DNA of 21,659 nt, taken from positions 1 to 21,659 of the IMG/VR virus record IMGVR_UViG_3300044846_000456; one strand, given 5' to 3'. The stretch is from a virus. Numbering within the stretch: the stretch's first letter is position 1; each line of letters opens with the position of its first letter. Shown in pieces: positions 3,353 through 14,625 of this stretch. The translations under genes were made by a program, and so were the position numbers. The notes under the pieces are model-generated. The model was not told where the DNA came from. It did no database searches and saw only the letters and a list, made by a program, of their open reading frames with translations.

Positions 3353-4078
3353 ATGAAAACAGAAATTGTAATACCTACTTCATTAAGTGAAATACCTTTA
3401 AAGAGCTATCAGGAATTTATGAAGGTAGTTGAAAAATCAAATGACGAAGAATTTATAGGTCAAAAGACTATCGAAATATTCTGTGGTTTAAAAATGAAAG
3501 ACGTAGTTAAAGTAAAATGGAGCGACGTTAAAAGTTTGACCCTACATTTAAACGAAATATTCAAAGCGAAGCCTAAATTTCAAGCTACATTTAAAATAGA
3601 AAATACTGAATTTGGTTTTATACCTAATCTGGAGGATATGACTTTCGGAGAATATATAGATTTAGAAAGTAATATTTCAAGCGTAGAAACTTTTCACAAA
3701 GCGATGGCTGTAATGTACCGACCTATTACAAAGAAAGTAAAAGACCGATACGAAATATTCGAGTACACTGGCACGGATGAATTTAGCGATGTTATGAAGT
3801 ACGCTTCGCTGGATGTTGTCTTAGGTGCAACGGTTTTTTTTTCGACTTTAGGAAGCGACTTAGTACAACATACGCTTACCTCTTTGGAGAAGGAAATACA
3901 GAAGAATCCGAAGATAATGACTTTAGCGAAAGAACGCAATTTAATAAACGATGGGGATGGTACAATTCAATCTATGCGCTTTCTCAAGGAGACGTTACAA
4001 AGTTTGATGAAGTTACCCGACTGGGAGTTAGAAAGTGTCTTACCTACCTCACTTATGAAAGACAAAAAAGAGAAATAG
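3353..4078 (+). CDS. Tail assembly chaperone, zero-frame (G-like) product
   Basis: This is the 241-residue unshifted product. It has no signal peptide or membrane segment and is mixed alpha/beta, with a helical second half. Codons 161-163 (V-F-F) sit in a T9 run at 3834-3842, where the reading frame can slip by -1 into a second open frame (see 3841-4116). The zero-frame tail after the slip (STLGSDLVQ... to DKKEK) is itself a plausible helical sequence, so both products are likely made. In lambda the analogous G and GT proteins coat the tape measure and recruit tube subunits. Here the gene follows the large terminase and lies about 4.6 kb before the tape measure. The assignment rests on the overlapping WGWY-type frame and the tail context; the N-terminal half alone is not diagnostic. 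Confidence 0.65.
   Translation: MKTEIVIPTSLSEIPLKSYQEFMKVVEKSNDEEFIGQKTIEIFCGLKMKDVVKVKWSDVKSLTLHLNEIFKAKPKFQATFKIENTEFGFIPNLEDMTFGEYIDLESNISSVETFHKAMAVMYRPITKKVKDRYEIFEYTGTDEFSDVMKYASLDVVLGATVFFSTLGSDLVQHTLTSLEKEIQKNPKIMTLAKERNLINDGDGTIQSMRFLKETLQSLMKLPDWELESVLPTSLMKDKKEK
3834..3842 (+). other. Candidate -1 ribosomal frameshift site (T9 run)
   Basis: Nine T residues are read in zero frame as G-GTT-TTT-TTT-TCG. Bases 3835-3841 form the heptamer T TTT TTT, a textbook X XXY YYZ -1 slip site. The downstream stretch 3851-3857 (GGAAGCG) can pair with 3873-3880 (CGCTTaCC, one bulged A). This starts eight nucleotides after the run, a normal distance for a stimulatory hairpin. RNA polymerase slippage on T9 would give the same result by another route. 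Confidence 0.7.
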
Positions 4079-4116
4079 AAGAAAGAGAATTAAAAAAAAT
4101 ACAAAGGCATGGCTAA
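3841..4116 (+). CDS. Tail assembly chaperone, -1 frame extension (T-like part of G-T fusion)
   Basis: The -1 frame is open from 3787 to TAA 4114-4116 and has no ATG, GTG or TTG that could start it, so it needs a frameshift from the upstream frame. After slipping at T9 it adds 91 residues and gives a fusion of about 254 residues. It contains RWGWYNSIYALSQGDVTKFD and then CLTYLTYERQKREIEE. I recognise this WGWY..IY.L..GD....D.V pattern from small tail-assembly proteins of phages in this lineage. The extension shares 3841-4078 with the unshifted frame, so about 237 nt are dual-coding. Codons rare elsewhere in the window (CTC, GAG, ACC, CCC) cluster there, as expected under two-frame constraint. 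Its end overlaps the start of the next gene (4109). Confidence 0.72.
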   Translation, partial: FDFRKRLSTTYAYLFGEGNTEESEDNDFSERTQFNKRWGWYNSIYALSQGDVTKFDEVTRLGVRKCLTYLTYERQKREIEERELKKIQRHG

Positions 4117-4564
4117 TTATTACACTGTTTTAGATACGTTAAAAACAAACTTAGAAAACGATCCATTTGTAAACACGGTTACTCAAGGCGATATTTTTGC
4201 GGTCGATTTGGCAAAGCAAACAATATTTCCTTTAGTTCATATTATAGTAAATAACGCAACTTTTGAAAGTAACATAATTCGTTTTAACGTGAGTTTGATG
4301 GCAATGGATATTGTGAACAAATCAAAAGACGAAGATACGGATATATTTAACGGAAACGACAACGAAATATATGTATTAAATACTATGCTTTCAGTTCTAA
4401 ATAGATTGTACGAAGAACTACGAAGGGGTGATTTATTTACTGATGCTTTTCAAGTAGACGGTAACCCAACCTTAGAAGCGTTTGCTGAACGGTTTGAAAA
4501 CTATTTAGCTGGTTGGACTATGACGTTCGATATTTTAGTTCCTAACGAAATGACTGTTTGTTAA
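4109..4564 (+). CDS. Putative tail completion/terminator protein
   Basis: This 151-residue protein has no diagnostic motif. It begins with an amphipathic helix (YYTVLDTLKTNLENDPFVNTV), continues through beta-type segments (IFPLVHIIVNNATFE, NIIRFNVSLMAMDIV), then a helix (NTMLSVLNRLYEELRRGDL), and ends with strands (LAGWTMTFDILVPN). This helix-strand-helix-strand order and length resemble tail-terminator and completion proteins of the lambda gpU/SPP1 gp17 type. It sits between the chaperone and an HK97 gp10-like gene, which is the usual neck neighbourhood. Its ATG overlaps the stop of the frameshifted chaperone and its TAA overlaps the next ATG (TAATG). The role is inferred from context and pattern. 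Confidence 0.5.
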   Translation: MANYYTVLDTLKTNLENDPFVNTVTQGDIFAVDLAKQTIFPLVHIIVNNATFESNIIRFNVSLMAMDIVNKSKDEDTDIFNGNDNEIYVLNTMLSVLNRLYEELRRGDLFTDAFQVDGNPTLEAFAERFENYLAGWTMTFDILVPNEMTVC

Positions 4565-8515: not shown

Positions 8516-8673
8516 TTCAACTAATTTTAGAACTATTAAAAGCTGACGATTTCTTTGGGGTGAGTGAAATAGTAGACGTAGCGAAAGGAAAACACGAACT
8601 GACGGACAATATTAAAAAGATTTATAAACAAGAAAAGCGTAAACAATGGCTGAAAAAAGAACGATTGAATTAG
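8512..8673 (+). CDS. Small 53-residue protein upstream of the tape measure
   Basis: ATG 8512 overlaps the previous stop as ATGA and opens 53 codons to TAG 8671-8673. The product begins MIQLILELLKADDFFGVSEI and ends in a strongly basic stretch (KKIYKQEKRKQWLKKERLN). A hydrophobic first helix followed by a Lys/Arg-rich tail suggests a small helical protein. It fills the only gap in a tightly coupled string and overlaps the tape-measure start by 28 nt, as real coupled genes do. No homologue is recognised, and its position would fit an accessory to tape-measure or tail-tip assembly. Confidence 0.6.
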   Translation: MIQLILELLKADDFFGVSEIVDVAKGKHELTDNIKKIYKQEKRKQWLKKERLN

Positions 8674-10799
8674 AAATACAAGACAATAGCAAAAGTTTAA
8701 AAGCTCAATATAGGGAAGCCGTTGCGGAACTTCAAAAACTTTCTGCGACATACGGTGAAACAAGCGAACAAGCGGTAAAAGCCGCAAGGGCAGCCGCTGA
8801 ATTAAAAGATCAAATAGAATTCAGTAAAGACTTAATCAAAGGTTTTAACCCTGATGCTAAATTTCAAGCTGTTGAGGGCGCTGTAAATGGCGTAATGAAC
8901 GGTTTTCAAGCGTTTACGGGTGGCATGGCTTTATTAGGTGTTGAAAGCGACAAAGTAGAAGAAGCACTTTTGAAAGTACAAAGTGTAATGGCTTTAACGC
9001 AAGGTATTAATGGAGTAATGCAGGCAGGCGATGCTTTCAAAGTTTTAGGTGCAAGTGCTAAGGCTGCGTTGAGTGGTATTAGAAGCGGTTTAGCTGCGAC
9101 TGGTATAGGTTTATTTGTAGTTGCTTTGGGTACTATTGTCGCTTATTGGGATGATATAAAAGCGGCGGTAAGCGGTGTTTCTGAAGAACAATTAAAACTA
9201 AATAAAGACGTAGAGAAACAGGCAACTGCTTCTAAAGATATTTACGAAAACGCACAATTACAAGAAAATAGTTTAAGGCTTCAAGGTAAAAGCGAAAAGG
9301 AAATTTTACAAATACGAATAAATAAATTAAATACTTCAATAAAAGACGAAGAGGTAAGAATAAAAGGATTAGAGGAAACTTCAAAACTTGAAATAGCAGC
9401 CGCAGAACGTAACCAAGAAATAGCAAAAAACATTATTCGTTTTGCTTTAGAATCTTCAGTAATGACTTTAAGGGCATTGGCTGCTCCCTTTGATTTATTA
9501 ATTGAAGGAGCAAATAAACTTTCTGAAACATTAGGCTTGGGTAAAATCACAACTACAAATATAAATACTGAAATTACTAAATTAACTCAATTAGGTGCTG
9601 AAGTAGGGAGTAAGTTTTTATTTGATCCCGCTAAAGTAAAAGCCGACAGCCAAGCAACTATAACAGCGGCAAAGCAAGGGTTAAACCAAATGAAGTCCGA
9701 TAGGGATGGCTTTTTAATTCAATTAAAACAAGGCGATAAACAAGGAGCGCAAGACCGTGTAAATACGGAAAAAAACGCAGCACAAGAACAAATAGATATT
9801 ACACGTCAAATGGAAGAAGAAACAAACCGTTTGATGGAAGAAGGACGTGCTAAAGAATTAGACGCTTTAAGAATTAAGTACAAATACGAACAACAAGAAA
9901 CTGATAAAAACTTTAAAGAGGGTAAACTTAAAAAAGAAGATTACGACAAACTAACTGCACAAGCTATTGAAAGCAAACGTTTAGATGACAAGGCAATTAA
10001 TGATAAGTACGACAAAATAGAAAAAGACGCACGAGATTTAAAGTTACAAGAACAAATAAAAGCTGAAGATGCTGCATGGTTAGAATTACAAAAGGCGCGT
10101 AACTCACAACGTGAACAAGAACTTTTAGATTTACAATTAGCATTTGATGAAAAGATAGCAGCCGCAAACGGTAACGCGGAAATAGAAAAAGCAATTACCG
10201 ATAAATTTAATAAAGAATATGCTGCTATAAATGAAAAATACCGTAAAGAAGAAGAAGAAAAACAAAAGGAACAGGATAAAAAAGATATTGCACGAAAAAA
10301 CGAATTAAGACAAAAGACGCTTGAATTAACTGCTCAATCTTTTAGCGCATTAGGTGAGTTGGCTGGTTCGTTTAATACTAAAAACGAAAAGGACGCACGT
10401 AAACAATTTCAAGTACAAAAGGCTTTTAATTTAGCCGCTGCAATTACAAACACTGCAATGGCGGTAACGGGTGCATTAACTGCTGGCGGTAACCCAATTA
10501 AGTTAGCAACGGGTATGCAATTTGTCGAAGCTGGTATTGCTGCAACGGTAGGAGCTGCAAACATAATTAAAATTTCAAATTCTAAATTTGGAGGGGGTGC
10601 AAATTCAGGCGGTGGCGGTAATGATACTAACGTACCAACTGCTGCTCCTATGACTGCGAATTTTAATACAATAGGTTCAAGCGGTATTAATCAGTTAGCA
10701 CAATTACAACAAACGCCTACACAAGCCTACGTAGTGAGTGGTGAGGTAACAAGCGCACAGGCTTTGGATAGGAATAGAGTACAAAACGCAACTTTATAA
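8646..10799 (+). CDS. Tail tape measure protein
   Basis: This 717-residue protein sets tail length. After a charged coiled-coil N-terminus it has a Gly/Ala-rich hydrophobic region, with a strong membrane-like segment near residues 148-175 (ATGIGLFVVALGTIVAYW). A second weakly hydrophobic stretch lies at about 262-298. From about 365 to 570 it is a long Lys/Glu/Gln-rich coiled coil. Residues ~594-650 are again Ala/Gly-rich and hydrophobic (NLAAAITNTAMAVTGALTAG), followed by a GGGANSGGGG linker. This is the typical tape-measure pattern. At the known ratio of about 0.15 nm of tail per residue, the tail should be roughly 105-110 nm. The protein is unusually far from its chaperone (3353), and the next gene is a head protease. 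Confidence 0.9.
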   Translation: MAEKRTIELEIQDNSKSLKAQYREAVAELQKLSATYGETSEQAVKAARAAAELKDQIEFSKDLIKGFNPDAKFQAVEGAVNGVMNGFQAFTGGMALLGVESDKVEEALLKVQSVMALTQGINGVMQAGDAFKVLGASAKAALSGIRSGLAATGIGLFVVALGTIVAYWDDIKAAVSGVSEEQLKLNKDVEKQATASKDIYENAQLQENSLRLQGKSEKEILQIRINKLNTSIKDEEVRIKGLEETSKLEIAAAERNQEIAKNIIRFALESSVMTLRALAAPFDLLIEGANKLSETLGLGKITTTNINTEITKLTQLGAEVGSKFLFDPAKVKADSQATITAAKQGLNQMKSDRDGFLIQLKQGDKQGAQDRVNTEKNAAQEQIDITRQMEEETNRLMEEGRAKELDALRIKYKYEQQETDKNFKEGKLKKEDYDKLTAQAIESKRLDDKAINDKYDKIEKDARDLKLQEQIKAEDAAWLELQKARNSQREQELLDLQLAFDEKIAAANGNAEIEKAITDKFNKEYAAINEKYRKEEEEKQKEQDKKDIARKNELRQKTLELTAQSFSALGELAGSFNTKNEKDARKQFQVQKAFNLAAAITNTAMAVTGALTAGGNPIKLATGMQFVEAGIAATVGAANIIKISNSKFGGGANSGGGGNDTNVPTAAPMTANFNTIGSSGINQLAQLQQTPTQAYVVSGEVTSAQALDRNRVQNATL

Positions 10800-10810
10800 G
10801 TTAATGAGAT

Positions 10811-11413
10811 ATGGCAAAAGTTGAAATAATAGAATTACTGATTGATGAGACAAAAGAAGAAATGGGAATCAATGCTGTTTCCGTTGTTGAATCACCAGCG
10901 ATTGAAGAAAATTTTGTAGCGTTACAAAAACACGAAGTCGAACTAAAAGAAGTAGATACTGAAAAGCGTATCTTAATGGGTGCGGCTTTAATTCCTAACA
11001 AACAGATTTACCGTAAAAACAAGGATAAAGAGTTCTACATTTACTTTAGTGAGGACACGGTACGCAAAGCTTCGGAACTTTTTTTAATGCGTTCTAATCA
11101 AAACAATGCAACGTACGAACACGAGCGCAAAATGCTCGAAGGTATGAGTGTAGTTGAAAGCTGGATAATTGAAGATGAAAAGACGGATAAAAGTCGATTA
11201 TATAACTTTAATTTACCTAAAGGAACTTGGATGATTTCAATGAAGGTAAACAATGACGAAGTTTGGAAAAAAGTAAAAGACGGTGAAGTAAAAGGATTTT
11301 CAATAGAAGGTTATTTTGTGGATAAATACGATATGAGTTCACACGAAGACGAATTGTTAATTGAAAAATTAAAAGACTTAATTAATAAATATGAAAACAC
11401 CGACAAAAAGTAA
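10811..11413 (+). CDS. XkdF-like prohead serine protease (Peptidase S78-type)
   Basis: This 200-residue protein matches the XkdF-like phage serine protease pattern. The opening VSVVESPAIEENF at residues 23-35 is typical. GAALIPNKQIYR follows, then YEHERK with H104, VVESWIIED, LPKGTWMISMKV, and KGFSIEGYF with the likely nucleophile S164. H104 and S164 are the probable catalytic pair. It would mature the prohead by cleaving scaffold and capsid, consistent with the scaffold candidate and capsid gene downstream. It is the first gene of the head block and comes directly after the tape measure, so tail and head blocks abut here. The C-terminus is Lys/Glu-rich and overlaps the next small gene in a different frame. 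Confidence 0.85.
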   Translation: MAKVEIIELLIDETKEEMGINAVSVVESPAIEENFVALQKHEVELKEVDTEKRILMGAALIPNKQIYRKNKDKEFYIYFSEDTVRKASELFLMRSNQNNATYEHERKMLEGMSVVESWIIEDEKTDKSRLYNFNLPKGTWMISMKVNNDEVWKKVKDGEVKGFSIEGYFVDKYDMSSHEDELLIEKLKDLINKYENTDKK

Positions 11414-11589: not shown

Positions 11590-11958
11590 ATGATAAACAA
11601 TATTTTAAAGAAAATCGAAAAGGCTGATAACGTTAGCGACGTAAAATTAGCAAAGCACGAAGTTGAGTTAGCAAATATTAATCAATTAGTACAAGAAATA
11701 GATAAAAGTGAAAAATTGCTTGCTGATTTTAATAACCTTTATGGGCAAATTGATAAGATAGCACCAAACCTTATAAAGGTTGGGGATAATTTTACTGCTA
11801 CAAGAGATAAAATAAATGAATTGGCAAGAACATTTGACAAACAATTTGCTGATTTAGGTTTGAAATTTGCTGAATATCCAGAAGCAAAAAGATTAAGAGA
11901 CTTAAATTTAAAATCAAGGGAAGTACCAACAATGGTAGCAAGAATTAAAAATTTATAA
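11590..11958 (+). CDS. Coiled-coil protein in the head block, function unknown
   Basis: This 122-residue protein is almost wholly helical, with heptad-like spacing of Leu/Ile/Val through KAD..DVKLAKHEVELANINQLVQ and KSEKLLADFNNLYGQIDKI. No Cys, signal peptide or membrane segment is present. The C-terminal part (YPEAKRLRDLNLKSREVPTM) ends in a short basic tail. It lies between the prohead protease and the scaffold candidate, and short A-rich spacers separate the three genes. A role in head assembly is inferred from location only, and a minor virion protein is possible. Confidence 0.7.
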   Translation: MINNILKKIEKADNVSDVKLAKHEVELANINQLVQEIDKSEKLLADFNNLYGQIDKIAPNLIKVGDNFTATRDKINELARTFDKQFADLGLKFAEYPEAKRLRDLNLKSREVPTMVARIKNL

Positions 11959-11967
11959 TAAATAAAA

Positions 11968-12543
11968 ATGAAAAATAGCTTAATCAATCAAATTAAAACT
12001 TTACTCGGTATGGAAGTAAAGTTAGAAACAATGAAACTATCGGACGGTGTTACAGTTTTAGAAGCTGAAATGTTTGAAGCTGGAAACGAAGTATTTGTAG
12101 TTACTGAAGATGAACAAAAAATAGCTTTACCAATAGGTGAATACGAAATGGAAGATGGACGTATTTTGATCGTAGTAGAAGAAGGAATAATTTCTGAAAT
12201 TAAAGAGAAAGAAGAAGAAGAAGAAGAAATGCCTGAAGAAGCACCGATTGAAGAAGAAGCGAAGAAAGAACAAGAAATGGAAACGTCAAAAGCTGCGCCT
12301 AAAAAGATAGTTGAAAGCATGATTAAAGAATCTTTCTTTTCTGAAATTGAAGCGCTTAAAAACGAGAATAACGCACTAAAAGCGGAATTATCTAAACTAA
12401 AAGAAGCTAAAGAAGTTGAACTTTCTGAAGTTAAACCAATTTCTTTTAACCCTGAAAACGAAAACACAAACGATTCTATAAAGTTAAGTGCAAAAAGACA
12501 ACGCACAACTATGGATTCAATACTTGAAAAATTAAATAAATAA
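11968..12543 (+). CDS. Putative capsid scaffolding protein
   Basis: This is a 191-residue, very acidic protein. Residues 20-75 look like a small beta domain (LSDGVTVLEAEMFEAGNEVF, IGEYEMEDGRILIVVEEG). A Glu-rich linker (KEKEEEEEEMPEEAP and onward) spans about 78-105. A coiled coil spans about 120-153 (SEIEALKNENNALKAELSKL), and the C-terminus is basic and Ser/Arg-rich (KLSAKRQRTTMDSILEKLNK). Acidic linker, coiled coil and a basic, possibly capsid-binding tail between protease and capsid genes are classic scaffold features. The N-terminal beta domain is less usual and could be a separate structural module. No homologous family is certain. Confidence 0.6.
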   Translation: MKNSLINQIKTLLGMEVKLETMKLSDGVTVLEAEMFEAGNEVFVVTEDEQKIALPIGEYEMEDGRILIVVEEGIISEIKEKEEEEEEMPEEAPIEEEAKKEQEMETSKAAPKKIVESMIKESFFSEIEALKNENNALKAELSKLKEAKEVELSEVKPISFNPENENTNDSIKLSAKRQRTTMDSILEKLNK

Positions 12544-14049: not shown

Positions 14050-14625
14050 ATGAGCTGTGATATAACAAATGGTAGAATAGAACAATGTAAAGATTCCGTT
14101 TCGGGATTGAAAGCTATCTACTTTATAAACTACGACGACTTAAATTCTGACGATGTAACATACGATGCAACGGACACGGATTTAATTACTGACTGGACTC
14201 CACTTGGTGCAAGCGCTATAAACTTGTATAAATACGAATTGAAAGGAGCTAACAGTTTTGAAACTACAATTAATTCAAGCCGTGATAACGGTACTACTTT
14301 CTTTCAACAAACTTTGACTATTCAATTAAAAAGACAAGACGTTACAACGCATAAAAACGTTAAATTACTTGCTTACGGTAGACCGAGAATAGTAGTTAGA
14401 ACAATGACCGACCAATTCTTTTTAATGGGACTTACACAAGGTGCTGACGTAACAGCTGGAACTGTTTCTTCAGGTTCTGCTTTAGGAGATTTCAACGGAT
14501 ACAATTTAACTTTTGAAGCAATGGAAGTTTCACCCGCTAACTTCCTTGACGTAACAGATGAAAACGGGTTAAAAGTTTTATTTGAAACTGGAGCTGGTAC
14601 TGATGCAACAATAGTTACTTCTTAA
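14050..14625 (+). CDS. Probable major tail tube protein
   Basis: This 191-residue beta-rich protein begins MSCDITNGRIEQCKDSVSG and continues with KAIYFINYDDLNSDD, FETTINSSRDNGTTFFQQTL and LLAYGRPRIVVRTMTDQFFL. It ends with ALGDFNGYNLTFEAMEVSPA. I recall this CDIT.GR.E.CKDS..GLKA.YF pattern in siphovirus structural proteins of Bacteroidota, where it is abundant in virions. It is flanked by a terminator on each side (13997-14026 and 14652-14682), so it stands alone, as expected of a high-copy tube or virion protein. Its leader (AATAATAAAATG) is A-rich. No other gene here fits a tube monomer better. A second capsid-associated role cannot be excluded. Confidence 0.7.
   Translation: MSCDITNGRIEQCKDSVSGLKAIYFINYDDLNSDDVTYDATDTDLITDWTPLGASAINLYKYELKGANSFETTINSSRDNGTTFFQQTLTIQLKRQDVTTHKNVKLLAYGRPRIVVRTMTDQFFLMGLTQGADVTAGTVSSGSALGDFNGYNLTFEAMEVSPANFLDVTDENGLKVLFETGAGTDATIVTS

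Follow-up and report, generated by a model that had tools for sequence, protein, structure and literature searches.

The window, the whole 21,659-nt stretch analysed here (IMG/VR virus record IMGVR_UViG_3300044846_000456, positions 1 to 21,659), carries a real and conserved gene in which a run of nine Ts (T9) marks a transition from the zero frame to the −1 frame, and whose DNA beyond this run codes in both frames. The −1 domain is constantly out of frame and both frames are under constraint; therefore a conserved short/long protein pair is, judging from sequence, a near certainty. As a whole, the explanation we judge best, with somewhat more than even confidence, is a conserved T9 frame transition, most likely brought about by polymerase slippage and producing a chaperone-like pair. 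One gene would thus give two proteins sharing a 163-aa N-terminal domain. Normal expression would lead to a zero-frame protein of 241 aa (the N-terminal domain plus a 78-aa zero-frame extension), while a fraction of expression would shift to −1 at T9 and lead to a fusion of ~254 aa, composed of 163 + 91 residues, whose C-terminal part is a helical WGWY domain. We infer that both products are expressed. The features concerned are the following:

3353–4078, plus strand: zero-frame ORF (short isoform), ATG at 3353, stop at 4078, 241 aa
3787–4116, plus strand: −1 frame, open from stop to stop, 109 codons, with no ATG, GTG or TTG start
3834–3842, plus strand: T9 run, the frame-transition site (zero-frame codons GTT TTT TTT TCG)
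3835–3841, plus strand: T_TTT_TTT heptamer in phase with the zero frame (F162-F163), a candidate site for ribosomal slippage
3841–4116, plus strand: −1 extension of the predicted long fusion isoform (F163-FDFRKR..., WGWY motif in a helical domain)
3842–4078, plus strand: dual-coding stretch of 237 nt, purifying selection on both frames
3851–3880, plus strand: bulged 7-bp hairpin beginning eight nt past the T run, probably not functional
4109–4564, plus strand: next gene, 151 aa, its ATG overlapping the end of the −1 ORF

The ORF, T9, −1 frame, overlap and hairpin had been located by an earlier sequence-only reading of this DNA, and the coordinates were all right when rechecked on the sequence. 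So was its statement that the −1 frame has no start of its own: none is present in 3787–4116, and an independent −1 ORF start was also rejected for the relatives, in which GTG, TTG or ATG codons were rare and not conserved. The zero-frame ORF matches phrog_32199 (2e-14) and is homologous to gp38 of Nonlabens phage P12024S.

The two-frame gene follows the terminase large subunit gene and is followed by the conserved 151-aa gene and then by a neck/tail-completion gene. Among 63 lineages, terL was found upstream in 47 and the next gene downstream in 59, mostly starting −1 to −14 nt from the −1 ORF end. Since its ATG overlaps this end, the start of the next gene is tied to the −1 stop or product and not to the zero-frame stop. 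Elsewhere the gene order of the window is unusual: the portal gene and a conserved gene (14050–14625) come after the tape measure gene (8646–10799), and terminase and portal are separated by most of the window. Judging by size and place, the conserved gene may be the tail tube gene. A prohead protease and a scaffold-like ORF, with a third ORF between them (10811–11413, 11590–11958 and 11968–12543), match positions 8–174 and 206–338 of the 349 of phrog_24921 and are separate ORFs here. At the beginning of the window, ORF 80–583 resembles by eye a homing-type HNH endonuclease bearing a DNA-binding tail, and adjoins a ParB/methyltransferase-like gene (580–1752).

Relatives were taken from IMG/VR scans (at least 334 distinct regions in 92 lineages, counted as separate when their −1 domains share less than 60% identity), to which the isolates P12024S and P12024L were added. 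The first scans gave at least 61 distinct regions at 72–100% identity, all carrying T9 and with both frames open over the overlap, except that the zero frame closes early in one (L077) and the −1 stop is lost in another (L029). In the latter, the −1 frame (3483–4208) continues without stop for 242 codons and runs into the region of the next gene, through either a sequence error or a natural fusion. Among the 334 distinct relatives listed, the −1 extension measured 80–99 codons in all 92 lineages and was always out of frame; the zero extension varied from 16 to 88 codons, with a median of 55. Two wider scans used N-domain peptides only, hence without selection for the slip site, and yielded 152 loci. 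In 78/78 and 74/74 of the distinct two-domain loci listed, the two domains were joined through a shift, which supports the proposed joining of the two frames at the T run. Relatives that would have lost the T run and gained a −1 start, or in which the −1 frame would not stay open, were looked for and not encountered. The phages P12024S and P12024L are the sole isolate relatives with annotation that the sequence searches brought up. At 26% identity of the N-domain, their T9 run lies at the corresponding position and their −1 domain shares the aromatic motif. They differ in annotation, gp38 and gp39 being given as two separate hypothetical proteins with no frameshift, and in their zero extension of ~26 codons.

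We then considered the T run itself. Its length was 9 in 317, 10 in 16 and 8 in a single one of the 334 distinct relatives listed (≥9 in 333/334), and the T7 heptamer lay in zero-frame phase in all 334, as expected for an X_XXY_YYZ site of −1 frameshifting. In 544 kb of these loci, 103 runs of T≥9 were counted, the slip site being carried by 92 lineages; a second T≥9 run in the upstream domain was found in none of the 92. The base preceding the heptamer (b−1) was not T in six lineages, and a T was gained at b+8 in five of these six versus 3/86 otherwise (p=7e-6, a value that ignores kinship and concerns six lineages which may not be independent). The b−1 residue was hydrophobic (V/L/I/F) in 86/92 lineages, which partly explains the T at b−1. 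Leucine at the third −1 codon was encoded by TTR (TTA/TTG) in 55/55 cases, against 58% elsewhere; upstream, CTN accounts for 42% of the Leu codons. This exclusive use of TTR protects the seventh T and is consistent with polymerase and ribosomal slippage alike.

Ribosomal slippage needs T7 in phase, and polymerase slippage a long run in any phase. A conserved element consisting of a run length of at least nine suits polymerase slippage better than a T7 ribosomal heptamer. Programmed realignment takes place at A/T runs of about nine or more, of conserved length and independent of ribosomal phase; the site agrees with this description, with few lineages contributing to the flank compensation. Runs of nine A or T are efficient slippage sites for bacterial RNA polymerase (PMC5009743), and Tn with n>8 is regarded as a programmed-slippage site (PMC3711429). 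The E. coli enzyme prefers poly(T) and insertion over deletion, with 5% at T7 and 10% at T8 (PMC6260861), while U_UUU_UUU is much less shift-prone than A_AAA_AAG for E. coli ribosomes (PMC5009743); the host here is not E. coli. According to this scheme, the polymerase would slip on the nine Ts and add one U, which gives the −1 frame, and ordinary translation of the resulting U10 mRNA would read V-F-F-F-D-F-R.

The sequence-only reading had proposed a probable −1 frameshift at this T run and pointed to the hairpin after it, which would mean ribosomal frameshifting at T_TTT_TTT with the hairpin as stimulator. With P- and A-site tRNA-Phe each slipping back one base on U_UUU_UUU, the fusion protein would be identical. 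To our knowledge, all well-studied phage tail-chaperone pairs use ribosomal shifting, and this is the case of the lambda pair (PMC5009743). The invariable in-phase heptamer speaks for the ribosome, and a longer U run might help it too. The start of the next gene overlaps the −1 ORF end, which also fits but points no further than to translation of the −1 ORF. Against the ribosome, what is conserved is nine Ts, two beyond the need of a ribosome, with flanks substituting for each other, and U_UUU_UUU is a weak site in E. coli. Nor did the hairpin (3851–3880) fare well as a stimulator. Folding of 60 nt from 3847 gave a z of −0.9, not beyond chance, and from 3833 a z of −2.4, weak at best. Among 44 lineages folded without pseudoknots, no conserved downstream structure and no excess stability were detected, with mean z of −0.26, 0.13 and 0.02 for 40, 60 and 90 nt respectively. 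A stimulatory downstream structure, as known from −1 frameshifting, was thus not found in these folds, although some known −1 frameshift sites do without one. Taken together, the conserved run length, the flank compensation, the lack of conserved RNA structure and the published slippage data lead us to favour RNA polymerase moderately over the ribosome as the probable cause of the shift; ribosomal frameshifting keeps about one chance in three.

Polymerase slippage of this kind resembles the transcriptional realignment at T9/A9 in Shigella mxiE and Thermus dnaX, where a homopolymer of ~9 likewise gives two products from one gene and RNA structure is not needed. In contrast to these, the present gene belongs to a phage structural module and is conserved over a whole phage clade. 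A phage tail chaperone using transcriptional realignment was not found in the literature searched, nor was a tail-assembly ratio set at transcription, which is what slippage by the polymerase would mean. A fuller statement seems to us to have an even chance of being correct: in a clade of Bacteroidetes phages, programmed slippage of RNA polymerase at the conserved T9, and not ribosomal frameshifting, would fix the proportion of the two members of a tail-assembly (chaperone-like) pair, and up to 88 zero-frame codons would have been overprinted on the frameshift domain.

What could such a pair do? By analogy with lambda gpG/gpGT, it most likely acts as a tail-assembly chaperone set in which the short form would be abundant and the long form rarer. 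In lambda G/GT-type pairs, the N-domain binds the tape measure protein and the T domain the tail tube protein, and both are absent from the virion. The likeness is that a single tail-region gene would encode both a short zero-frame protein and a longer fusion ending in a −1 domain, and that the slippery site is conserved. The differences are a T9 run in place of the lambda slip site, a dual-coded overlap reaching 88 codons, and a gene located after terminase and not adjoining the tape measure gene: instead of lying directly downstream of the site, the latter is ~4.5 kb beyond the two-frame gene with four genes between. No sequence similarity to lambda gpG/gpGT was found.

The assignment of the gene as a G-T type tail chaperone, made in the sequence-only reading, agrees with the short/long architecture and the synteny, and received no confirmation by profile or fold. 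Pfam and NCBIfam tail-chaperone profiles gave nothing above cut-off, the hits being weak and at chance level (NF047360 at 0.029 in 1/58, PF20962 at 0.029 in 1/62). Other sub-threshold hints were phrog_166, a tail protein (0.002 in 2/58), and BFVD chaperone entries matching only at E 0.8–1.6. The −1-domain motif RWGWYNSIYALSQGDVTKFD, taken there for a known tail-assembly signature, turned out to have PHROGs without assigned function as its sole matches, the tail-chaperone profiles of Pfam and NCBIfam staying below cut-off. Remaining matches were viral relatives without assigned function, and sequence and fold searches of the PDB returned no usable match. AlphaFold models were moderate (pLDDT 76 and 74): in the zero-frame model the helix crossing the slip continues, and the −1 domain is all helical. 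The absence of a chaperone profile match (Pfam/NCBIfam) and the placement between terminase and neck genes, far from the tape measure gene, would also suit a real frame-shifted pair with another tail or neck role. We hold this to be the less likely reading, since a short protein paired with a longer one whose C-terminal helical domain comes from a shifted frame is the hallmark of G/GT and the weak hints point to tail-chaperone families. Because the pair sits in the tail block, the chaperone role is quite probable by analogy of architecture and synteny.

Coding in both frames was examined by classifying substitutions, inferred on a tree of 107 sequences, by their effect in each frame (rates are given as ts/tv per unit opportunity). 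Changes silent in the zero frame and altering the −1 protein dropped about fivefold at the slip, from 1.00/0.72 on its upstream side to 0.18/0.15 beyond, a suppression predicted by the sequence-only reading for a dual-coding overlap. The reciprocal class, altering the zero frame and silent in −1, amounted to 0.29/0.21 after the slip, and changes silent in both frames stayed near 1. Along the extension, zero-frame constraint was strongest in the first 33 codons (0.18/0.11), weaker in codons 34–66 (0.41/0.30), and faded beyond (0.72/0.50), while −1 constraint was strongest in codons 34–66 (0.07/0.11). Five other clades showed the same direction, with a zero-frame signal only modestly below the −1-only baseline. 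When codons were shuffled with the −1 protein fixed, a zero frame open over 66–88 codons arose in no more than 0.05% of the trials with this clade's sequences. By the same procedure, the zero frame was open in 63 lineages for 56 codons on average versus 12 expected, with 52/63 reaching p<0.05; the +1 frame taken as control showed no excess in these 63 lineages (2.1 codons versus 4.9 expected).

Dual coding is thus shown over the first part of the overlap; it is likely over the rest, with weaker pressure on the zero frame. One may object that the zero-frame extension is not a functional part of a protein and is merely kept free of stops, only the −1 fusion being of importance. Its variable length, its fading constraint past codon 66 and its early stop in L077 (3001–3546) would fit. 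There, the zero frame ends after 182 aa with the −1 frame intact, and this close relative offers a natural test of the long zero extension. The objection is nevertheless unlikely to hold: zero-nonsynonymous, −1-silent changes in the first 33 codons are held far below silent change upstream (1.0/0.7), and the LG..L...YL pattern of the extension is conserved across lineages. As its length varies and that of the −1 extension is constant, the zero extension probably represents the overprinted part; in most lineages, the zero-frame tail would have been extended over the −1 domain. Such a long dual-coding stretch, available in many sequences with one frame of constant length and the other variable, makes a clean natural case of overprinting.

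A T9 run is also a classic contingency-type tract, and replication slippage on DNA might switch a phage population between short and long genotypes. Such phase variation is very improbable: an in-frame fusion occurred in 0/152 loci recovered independently of the slip and in 0/334 distinct sequences listed, and simultaneous purifying selection on both frames speaks against it. Even less credible is a miscalled homopolymer or decayed gene with a single true frame, since, despite the proneness of homopolymers to error and several BFVD models (226–267 aa) that fit the models of both domains and might be versions in one frame, it is refuted for this family by a run of 9 or 10 Ts in 333/334 distinct sequences listed and in two isolate genomes (P12024S/L), and by selection on both frames.

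The recoding gene appears abundant and unannotated, at least about 600 stretches being returned by each of four IMG/VR scans. Its second product is missed by gene callers, and P12024S/L carry two hypothetical genes instead. Relatives were seen in isolate phages of a marine flavobacterium (Persicivirga/Nonlabens), and also in contigs that binning had assigned to Bacteroidetes, Flavobacterium and Winogradskyella; one more contig was binned as Pseudooceanicola, probably by error. Phages carrying the two-frame gene therefore probably infect Bacteroidetes, and a Bacteroidota host is inferred for the phage of the window. A distant N-domain relative (E 7e-6) was noticed in Flavobacterium phage 6H (AGN89393; L316 10352–10927, minus strand). 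Its C-terminal end reads ...RCFFYSTR with T_TTT_TTC, and the −1 frame meets a stop straight away; ~300 unannotated nt lie downstream in which, past a single early stop, the −1 frame is open.
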